Below are positions 5,209 to 21,224 of a stretch of 64,000 nt of DNA, in pieces. This DNA is from Lysobacter terrestris. Lineage in GTDB: Bacteria; Pseudomonadota; Gammaproteobacteria; Xanthomonadales; Xanthomonadaceae. Made by a program: the position numbers and the translations under genes. Under the pieces are notes generated by a model. The model had not been told where the DNA came from. It searched no databases and was given only the letters and a program-made list of their open reading frames with translations. The stretch covers positions 186,001-250,000 of the forward strand of contig NZ_CP060820.1 in the NCBI RefSeq assembly GCF_014489475.1. Direction: 5' to 3'. Position 1 is the first letter of the stretch, and each line of letters begins with the position of its first letter.

Positions 5209-5802
5209 ATGCGTTCGATCTGTGTCTATTGCGGCTCCAACGCCGGCAACAAATCCCTCTACGCCGATCGCGCCATCGCGCTGGGCAACCGCCTGGCCCG
5301 GGAAGGGCTGGCGCTGGTGTACGGCGGCGGCAACGTCGGCCTGATGGGTATCGTCGCCGATGCCGTGCTGGAAGCCGGCGGTGAAGTCGTCGGCGTGATT
5401 CCGGAACAACTGGTCGGTTGGGAAGTCGCGCACCAGGGCCTGACCCGGCTGGAGGTCGTCGCCAACATGCACGAGCGCAAGGCGCGCATGTTCGACCTCG
5501 CCGATGGTTTCGTCGCCCTACCCGGCGGTTTCGGCACGCTCGACGAGATGTTCGAGATGCTGACCTGGCGCCAGCTCGGGATCGGCGACAAGCCCTGCGC
5601 CTTCCTCGACGTCGACGGCTTCTACGCGCCGTTGATGACGATGCTGGATCGCATGGTCGAAGAACGCTTCCTGCATCCCGACCAGCGCCGCGACCTGTGG
5701 CACGGCGACGACATCACCTCGATGATCGAGTGGATGCGCGCCTACCGCCCCGCCGATGCGAACAAGTGGATGGACGAGAAGCGACGCAAGCAGTTGCGTT
5801 GA
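5209..5802 (+). CDS. LOG-family nucleoside 5'-monophosphate phosphoribohydrolase
   Basis: 197 aa, TIGR00730 / Lonely-guy family. These enzymes hydrolyse the N-glycosidic bond of nucleotide monophosphates. In plants and some bacteria they activate cytokinins; in most bacteria they are nucleotide-scavenging or PpnN-like. The signature PGGFGTLDE lies at 105-113, with the preceding MHERKARM segment and an N-terminal VYGGGNVGLMG nucleotide-binding loop. The ATG at 5209 follows the methyltransferase stop closely. Confidence 0.88.
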   Translation: MRSICVYCGSNAGNKSLYADRAIALGNRLAREGLALVYGGGNVGLMGIVADAVLEAGGEVVGVIPEQLVGWEVAHQGLTRLEVVANMHERKARMFDLADGFVALPGGFGTLDEMFEMLTWRQLGIGDKPCAFLDVDGFYAPLMTMLDRMVEERFLHPDQRRDLWHGDDITSMIEWMRAYRPADANKWMDEKRRKQLR

Positions 5803-5814
5803 CGCTCTTGCGCT

Positions 5815-5850
5815 CGTCATCCCGGCGCAAGCCGGGATCCAGTGCTTTTG
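5815..5850 (+). repeat. REP-like inverted repeat, left copy (GCAA loop)
   Basis: The element starts CGTCATCCCGGC, has a GCAA tetraloop and continues GCCGGGATCCAG, forming an 8-bp stem at 5819-5838. Its 36 bases match the reverse complement of 6093-6128 at 34 positions. Together the two copies enclose the GIY-YIG remnant. A second pair of the same family lies at 21134 and 21197. Confidence 0.8.
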
Positions 5851-5874
5851 CCGTTGCCATTCAAGGACGAATCA

Positions 5875-6059
5875 ATGAAGGATCCGTGCGTCTACATTCT
5901 CGCAAGTCAAAGGAATGGGACGCTGTACAGCACCCGACAATGGCGTCCGCGATCGAACGTGAGAAAGCGCTCAAGGAATGGAAGCGTACTTGGAAGCTGA
6001 AACTGATTGAGACTTCAAATCCGGAATGGCGCGACCTGTATCCTGAAATACTCGGCTGA
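5875..6059 (+). pseudogene. GIY-YIG nuclease remnant, internally deleted
   Basis: From the ATG at 5875 the frame reads MKDPCVYILASQRNGTLY, the start of small (about 95 aa) GIY-YIG nucleases related to YhbQ. After that the same frame turns to nonsense and stops. A different frame then reads HPTMASAIEREKALKEWKR and ends DLYPEILG at 6059, which is the family's C-terminus. The join lies near 5928. Roughly 40 codons carrying the rest of the GIY-YIG core have been lost with a frame change. The remnant lies neatly between inverted repeats at 5815 and 6128, suggesting a decayed mobile or repeat-associated unit. Recognition rests on recalled family sequence. Confidence 0.75.
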
Positions 6060-6092
6060 AACACAGCACCTCTGTCCAAGTTGCGACAGAAT

Positions 6093-6128
6093 CAAAGGCA
6101 CTGGATCCCGGTTTGCGCCGGGATGACG
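6093..6128 (-). repeat. REP-like inverted repeat, right copy
   Basis: Reverse-oriented partner of the repeat at 5815 with two differences in 36 bases. It begins CTGGATCCCGG on the plus strand and ends GCCGGGATGACG. It lies in the leader of the YhdH-type gene; in the longest open frame of that gene it would be translated, which argues for the later start at 6140. Confidence 0.8.
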
Positions 6129-6139
6129 AGCAGAAACAA

Positions 6140-7132
6140 ATGCCCACACCCACTCGATTCACCGCCTTCCGCATCCACAACGACGCCAACGGCTACCGCA
6201 GCGGCCTCGAGCAGGTCTCGCTCGATGATCTCGCGCCGGGCGAAGTCGTCATCAGGACCGCGTACTCCTCGGTCAATTACAAGGACGCGCTCGCCGGCAC
6301 CGGCCAGGGCAAGATCCTGCGCAAGTTCCCGCTCATCGGTGGCATCGACGTGGCGGGCCACGTGGTCGCCTCCACCGATCCGAAGTTCCGCGAAGGCGAC
6401 GCCGTGCTGGTCACCGGTTGCGGGCTGAGCGAGACGCGCGACGGCGGCTACGGCGAATACGCCCGGCTCGAATCGCTGTGGGTCATCCCGCTGCCGACCG
6501 GGCTGAGCCTGCGCGAGAGCATGATCCTGGGCACGGCCGGCTTCACCGCGGCGCTGGCGTTGTACCGGATGACCGACAACCGGCAGACGCCGGACCTTGG
6601 TCCCCTGGCCGTGACCGGCGCCACCGGCGGCGTCGGCTCGCTGGCGGTGGACATCTTCAGCCGCGCCGGCTTCCAGGTACACGCGATCAGCGGTAAGCCG
6701 GAACACGCCGACTACCTCCGCTCGATCGGCGCCAGCGACGTGCTCGGGCGCGATGCGCTGGCGACGACCCGTCCGCTGGAATCCGCCCGCTTCGGCGGCG
6801 GCCTCGACAACGTCGGCGGCGGCATGCTCGCCAGCCTGCTCGCGCAGACCGCGCCCTACGGCAATGTCGCCAGCGCGGGACTCGCGGCCACCCCCGAACT
6901 GCCGACCACGGTCATGCCGTTCATCATCCGCGGCGTGTCGCTGGTCGGCGTGGCCTCGGCGGGAACGGCGCGCGACATCCGCGATGCGGTGTGGCAGCGC
7001 CTCGCGAACGAATGGAAGCCGCGCCACCTGGACCGCATCTGCACCCGCGAAGTCACCCTGCCGCAGCTGCCGGACGTGTTTGCGACGATGCTCACAGGCG
7101 GCTCGTTCGGCCGTACGCTGGTGGCCTTGTAG
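6140..7132 (+). CDS. YhdH/AcuI-type acrylyl-CoA reductase, zinc-free MDR oxidoreductase
   Basis: 330 aa, medium-chain dehydrogenase of the YhdH/YhfP family. Characterised members reduce acryloyl-CoA to propionyl-CoA with NADPH. SSVNYKDALA near the N-terminus, VTGATGGVGSLAVD as the nucleotide-binding motif, and LPTTVMPFIIRGV are typical. The ATG at 6140 gives the family's usual N-terminus. The frame also opens at 6113, but that extension is translated repeat sequence. No dinucleotide specificity can be proved here. Confidence 0.88.
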   Translation: MPTPTRFTAFRIHNDANGYRSGLEQVSLDDLAPGEVVIRTAYSSVNYKDALAGTGQGKILRKFPLIGGIDVAGHVVASTDPKFREGDAVLVTGCGLSETRDGGYGEYARLESLWVIPLPTGLSLRESMILGTAGFTAALALYRMTDNRQTPDLGPLAVTGATGGVGSLAVDIFSRAGFQVHAISGKPEHADYLRSIGASDVLGRDALATTRPLESARFGGGLDNVGGGMLASLLAQTAPYGNVASAGLAATPELPTTVMPFIIRGVSLVGVASAGTARDIRDAVWQRLANEWKPRHLDRICTREVTLPQLPDVFATMLTGGSFGRTLVAL

Positions 7133-21162: not shown

Positions 21163-21196
21163 CTGTTGCTTGTCGTTGACCCGGCGAGGTCAAAGG

Positions 21197-21224
21197 CTGG
21201 ATCCCGGCTTGCGCCGGGATGACG
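21197..21224 (-). repeat. REP-like repeat, second pair, right copy
   Basis: Inverted copy, CTGGATCCCGGC on the left and GCCGGGATGACG on the right. This pair encloses only 34 bp and no open frame. It lies between the mtnA start and the epmA stop. Confidence 0.8.

Follow-up and report, generated by a model that had tools for sequence, protein, structure and literature searches.

A broken gene between two inverted repeats in Lysobacter terrestris, lying in a stretch of 64,000 nucleotides that we analysed as a whole (the window), raises the question of what kind of element it once was, and whether the repeats belong to the enzyme that the gene encoded or to another system. We regard the feature as very probably the remains of a gene for a GIY-YIG nuclease, similar to Ssn, between two inverted CGTC REPs that this nuclease recognises. 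The parts of the element and its two neighbours are as follows:

5812..5850, plus strand: left arm, a slightly extended CGTC-1 REP whose stem has 8 bp, its loop 4 nt and its tail the sequence CCA, from the sequence; class features as given in the available part of PMC3733652
5875..5928, plus strand: head of the GIY-YIG gene, 18 codons, from ORF reading
5929..5930, plus strand: 2-nt junction replacing about 36 codons of the relatives, with loss of frame, from alignment A1
5931..6059, plus strand: tail of the gene with E71, K79 and E82 (A1 numbering), including the stop codon, from comparison with relatives
6093..6131, minus strand: right arm, a second CGTC-1 REP, inverted, from the sequence and repeat search
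5209-5802: LOG-family gene beside the cassette, named from our own ORF reading
6140-7132: acuI-like gene beside the cassette, named from our own ORF reading

The arms (5812-5850 and 6093-6131) comprise 39 nt each, are inverted and 95% complementary. They contain the two 36-base repeats in opposite orientation described in the original prediction, which indeed match at 34 of 36 positions (5815-5850 against 6093-6128). The gene lies between the arms as proposed there; the distances, given as 25 and 34 bp, are each one shorter, as 24 bp separate the left repeat from the ATG and 33 bp lie between the stop codon and the right repeat. Likewise, an internal loss is present, at about 36 instead of about 40 codons: head and tail of the remnant are out of frame with each other and separated by 2 nt, and A1 positions 20-55 are absent, including the conserved G21, R29 and H33. 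With these residues and roughly 36 codons gone, the window copy lacks a complete catalytic domain and should therefore not yield a working enzyme.

The tail of the gene shares 71% identity with its nearest relative over 42 residues. When searched alone against the Pfam GIY-YIG model it reached 13.2 bits, below the cut-off of 22.6, and the head (5875-5928) gave no match to Pfam. The GIY-YIG name is therefore derived from the relatives, one intact sequence of which matched PF01541 with an E-value of 4.8e-16, and in this way the earlier naming as a small GIY-YIG remnant stands. By sequence the window gene belongs to a family of small GIY-YIG proteins that includes a homologue from Neisseria gonorrhoeae (L094, 72% identity), which was found with the same profile and which we take to be the published Ssn. 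No other member of this family was detected in the window genome at an E-value of 1e-12, hence the intact copies that were to be sought there did not turn up. The genome contains two other GIY-YIG-domain genes; its only relative that is not of UvrC size (L031) has an inverted-repeat score of 9.

LOG-family and acuI-like genes are adjacent in 9 genomes, which we compared by eye. Five carry the gene or a remnant of it between the two (the window genome, G010, G018, G023, and G012, where the final codons and a right repeat are all that is left), and in four the site is empty (G004, G005, G007, G014). No clear target duplication was seen at this site in the 9 genomes. The insertion is either old or has happened more than once, and it is decaying at its site.

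According to the available part of the paper by Di Nocera et al. (2013, PMC3733652), CGTC-1 REPs are characterized by a CGTC tag, an 8-bp stem, a 4-nt loop and a CCA tail, and occur as pairs in opposite orientation. The window repeat has the same tag, stem, loop and tail, and it is present in multiple copies. We found 3 copies in the window and none in shuffled sequences when up to 3 mismatches were allowed, and a 26-base pattern with up to 2 mismatches detected 45 copies in the 3.15-Mb genome, compared to 0 when the pattern was reversed as a control. By type, 27 repeats of the genome are G-type and 11 C-type. Among the 45 copies are 14 neighbouring pairs in facing orientation, their CGTC tags pointing outward. 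Starts are spaced by 47-92 bp in 13 of these; the remaining pair, the sole long one with 286 bp, is that of the nuclease cassette. The spacer ends of 11 short pairs resemble, by eye, sub-terminal stretches of the cassette. A single CGTC-1 REP of the same type is located elsewhere in the window on the minus strand (21195..21223, two mismatches to the 29-mer of the left arm). The repeats of this genome are orphans after gene loss, and the window copy is most likely a dead member of a group of cassettes that combine a nuclease with its recognition hairpin.

We analysed the bracketing of homologues by scoring the best ungapped inverted repeat between the two flanks of each gene, using shifted positions at the same loci as control. 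In named genomes there were at least 584 matches, of which the top 80 were used, 8 of them lying too close to an end; 45 of 72 testable loci were bracketed with a score of 18 or more compared to 1 of 1600 controls. The second set comprised all 243 loci including the named ones, 20 of them included because their own genomes had no repeat pattern; 12 duplicates left 231 unique loci, of which 17 were untestable. Here 153 of the 214 testable loci were bracketed (score of 16 or more) versus 2 of 1127 shifted placements. For a later sample across the phylum, the best-scoring 109 loci of a longer list, the numbers were 69 of 105 testable loci and 0 of 185 controls. About three in ten loci had no bracket by this score (61 of 214 and 36 of 105). 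The median left arm ends 25 bp upstream of the start codon and the median right arm starts 19 bp past the domain (153 loci). The expectation that these repeats flank small GIY-YIG genes of this family more often than by chance is thereby borne out, and homologues free of any repeat association, which had been named as evidence to the contrary, are not what we observed.

Arms vary among the loci and changes in the stem are matched on both sides, hence they are not one copied sequence. Cognate repeats are found around or near the gene both for the window copy and at the homologue loci. The tie between family and repeats spans many Pseudomonadota as well as a few loci titled Nitrospira, Planctomycetota and Desulfobacterales, mostly MAGs. 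We rejected an association with small GIY-YIG genes in general, since only 1 of 20 others had a flanking inverted repeat, and this was not a CGTC REP; these 20 were weak, mostly C-terminally short matches to the A1 profile and of the general UPF0213 type. Separately, we noticed a different small GIY-YIG gene with a long flanking inverted repeat that starts with CCGTTCG and is not a CGTC REP (L465 in genome G171, more weakly L458). At L036 and L237 the nuclease frame continues into repeat-derived sequence downstream, resulting in a repetitive C-terminal tail. In genome G221 clusters of truncated nuclease genes lie between 24-nt repeat cores that are identical and alternate in orientation (L439, L441, L442, L444); since many stretches of this genome stop at contig ends, we draw no mechanism from them.

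Covariation of residues and bases among the relatives suggests which amino acids would read which bases of the repeat. Bases were numbered from the G of GTC, so that base 9 pairs with base 18. In a scan of 40 base positions against 97 alignment columns with 125 representatives, the highest values were obtained for bases 9 and 18 with column 71 (z 28.7 and 26.8), followed by base 15 with column 79 (z 23.5). Columns 92, 68 and 73 also covary with bases 9/18 and rank after the latter pair; for base 27 and column 82 the value was z 9.9. Residue 71 was tabulated for those 116 of the 153 bracketed loci whose arms match the CGTC-1 core; the arms of the other 37 did not fit. Base 9 is C with K (69/72), R (3/3) and H (1/1), G with E (19/19), N (8/10), Q (1/1) and G (1/1), and A or T with A (9/9).

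A rule set beforehand (K/R/H with C, E/N/Q with G, A with A or T) was then scored on fresh loci. It predicted 15 of 17 correctly (K with T in both misses), compared to 11 of 17 for a constant guess of C; this test left out 51 of the 69 bracketed arms as lying outside the CGTC-1 core, and L71 had no prediction. Outside the core the rule held in 20 of 31 cases, with R71 facing G9 six times, and it is therefore not universal. Shared ancestry is controlled in part. As the tree gave just two supported independent pairs, we used 47 disjoint nearest pairs of differing repeat type, with identity computed without columns 66-80: the rule was right for both members in 39 pairs, for one in 8 and for none in 0. 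Column 71 differed in 42 of the 47, compared to 10 of 47 identity-matched pairs of the same type.

For residue 79 and base 15 the discovery loci gave R with G in 46/48, E with A or C in 22/23 and K with G in 10/13 cases; for residue 82 and base 27 they gave E with G in 83/99, D with T in 10/12 and Q with T in 6/6. In the later loci we counted R79 with G in 9/9, E79 with A or C in 3/3, and E82 with G in just 9/16. Both pairings had been found with discovery and fresh loci pooled, so these later counts are not independent. In an AlphaFold model (mean pLDDT 92.7) residue 71 ends the helix 59-71, and residues 79 and 82 are placed on the helix 74-84. Direct readout would give K or R with G and E with C on the 3' strand, and the observed chemistry agrees. 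The window copy itself fits with E71 and G9 as well as with E82 and G27, whereas K79 with A15 is a misfit to the K-G combination of the discovery loci. The residue-to-base code may be new. Beside it we observed by eye, at L363, L379 and L408, repeats of the GTCATTGCGAG type that bracket nucleases with a helix KxGSRxKK instead of KxWxRxWK; this helix together with the GTCATTGCGAG-type repeats is possibly a second code.

Next, we compared repeat type and nuclease type across whole genomes. For 80 genomes taken from a longer list we counted the repeats of each type, C and G, with 0 in reversed controls. Of the 80, 59 had at least 8 repeats as well as a nuclease whose residue 71 was known, and 38 of these predict one type; where a genome has multiple gene copies the residue was taken from some of them. 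The majority type was as predicted in 33 of 38 genomes (C in 26/28, G in 7/10; p = 2.9e-4, kinship uncorrected), the exceptions being G328, G060, G092, G208 and G295. Genomes with both K/H and E/N nucleases held at least 8 repeats of each type in 10 of 10 cases versus 5 of 38 (p = 4.6e-7, kinship uncorrected). With A, V or D at position 71, alone or together with K, 6 of 11 genomes also held at least 8 of both types. Repeat type and nuclease type thus agree in most of the genomes tested, and spread of the repeats by nuclease cutting would be a simple reading of this agreement.

From these data a scheme can be proposed. In living relatives the C-terminal helices would read the hairpin, with residue 71 contacting the 9/18 base pair of the stem, residue 79 base 15, the last one in the loop, and residue 82 base 27 in the tail. 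The nuclease would then cut at the hairpin, probably in single-stranded DNA, as analogy with Ssn suggests; on the same analogy, binding and cutting of their own REP hairpin is the most likely activity of living relatives. Binding, cutting, a strand preference and the dispersal or maintenance of repeats through cutting would all be parts of this scheme. In Lysobacter terrestris an internal deletion in the gene would have left the repeats orphaned.

A more far-reaching proposal, which we put forward tentatively and which could well be correct, is that CGTC REPs derive from GIY-YIG nucleases, which would form a second and independent class of REP-spreading enzymes beside the RAYTs. The hairpin would be read by a short residue-to-base code (71 for the stem pair, 79 for the loop base, 82 for the tail base), genomes with two nucleases of different code would keep two separate repeat populations, and the short pairs would be internally deleted cassettes. 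The odds of this reading are lowered by the genomes with A, V or D at position 71 and by the poorer agreement of residue 82 in the later loci.

Selection for the repeats as marks is a serious rival to spread by the nuclease. Here the nuclease would recognise the repeats without a role in their spread; they would serve as marks, e.g. for trimming of single-stranded DNA in transformation, and multiply otherwise. We consider this possible but rather doubtful. Ssn reportedly modulates transformation in Neisseria, which is in line with such a function. Furthermore, no clear target duplication and no self-mobility were found, either at the LOG-acuI site by eye or among the copies in G065, and 11 of 214 genomes without the nuclease at a strict cut-off hold at least 10 repeats. 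The match to the resident type and the presence of both types in all genomes with two nuclease types are easier to understand if the nuclease drives the repeats, although selection of marks could account for them as well.

RAYT transposases as the movers of the repeats, with the GIY-YIG gene as a passenger, are very unlikely. RAYT-family matches are present in 185 of 274 class genomes and show a weak enrichment at thresholds of at least 1 and at least 2 repeats (p = 0.014 and 0.028). At 10 or more repeats, however, genomes with and without RAYT do not differ clearly (23/185 versus 6/88, OR 1.9, p = 0.21), whereas those with the nuclease are strongly enriched over those without (18/59 versus 11/214, OR 8.1, p = 5.6e-7), in a comparison of 273 class genomes that used one fixed repeat pattern and a strict nuclease cut-off and left kinship uncorrected; 27 of the 59 nuclease genomes held fewer than 2 copies of that fixed pattern. 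A passenger gene is not expected to show a residue-base code, and no gene for a tyrosine transposase with CGTC repeats on its flanks is described in the available part of PMC3733652. In the window genome no match to PF01797 (Y1_Tnp) was found at an E-value of 0.001, neither between the repeats nor elsewhere, and we therefore rejected RAYT as the driver here, in agreement with the original prediction of a system other than RAYT.

That the cassette is a MITE, mobilised through outer terminal repeats by an unrelated transposase, is equally improbable. It would explain genome G065, in which three truncated cassettes (L436-L438, about 878-1255) are 99.4-99.7% identical and have outer inverted ends running from TA-GGG to CCC-TA. 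Such ends were seen in G065 only, other loci being viewed without a systematic scan, and the window cassette ends with REP arms extended by a few bases. The G065 copies look like a MITE that has acquired a nuclease cassette, and with their MITE-like ends we rejected them as proof of self-mobility. They are the only near-identical multiplied copies that were compared. With no target duplication or self-mobility seen, the description of the window element as a mobile unit is not supported. Finally, a chance pairing of a decayed gene with abundant repeats, which the 45 copies and 14 facing pairs of this genome might suggest and which had been named as an outcome against the original prediction, is ruled out for practical purposes by bracketing far above the shifted controls in the named, complete and later samples.

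Since 2013 CGTC REPs have been known as a widespread class lacking a dedicated enzyme, as far as the available part of PMC3733652 goes, and our counts tie them to one small GIY-YIG family. The three named residues (71, 79 and 82) can be tested by a simple mutant assay. If true, the code would be of use in predicting which target a compact sequence-specific nuclease has, or in altering it, and would explain the two repeat populations of some genomes.

Among known systems, UPF0213 (YhbQ-like) GIY-YIG proteins share the fold; the nearest solved structure to the nuclease is 1zg2 (sequence E 8.8e-5; fold E 7.6e-3, with none at 0.001 or better). They differ in that the single flanking inverted repeat among the 20 weak A1 matches of this general type was of non-CGTC sequence. 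RAYT/GTAG REPtrons resemble the cassette in having a small enzyme gene flanked by REPs and paired short derivatives dispersed in the genome. They contain a tyrosine transposase in place of a GIY-YIG nuclease and require a GTAG tag where the repeats here carry CGTC, and the window genome has no RAYT match. Ssn proteins, said to have been described by Chenal et al. in Nat Commun in 2025, are reportedly site-specific single-strand GIY-YIG nucleases associated with NTS repeats in Neisseria. They have in common with our element a small GIY-YIG protein and cognate multicopy repeats, whereas the window copy is dead and its host belongs to Lysobacter. With a Neisseria GIY-YIG nuclease reportedly published in 2025 as acting on such repeats, and the repeat class itself described in 2013 (PMC3733652, available part), the system can hardly be called undescribed. 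A literature search, with many journals outside its range, found no paper joining GIY-YIG nucleases to REPs. The available part of PMC3733652 classes the Neisseria dRS3 as CGTC-1, names no dedicated enzyme for CGTC REPs, and does not contain the term "GIY". The window repeat shares tag, stem, loop, tail and opposite pairs with the CGTC-1 REPs described there; what differs is the enzyme, absent from that account as far as it is available and represented here by a GIY-YIG nuclease that is tied to the repeats.
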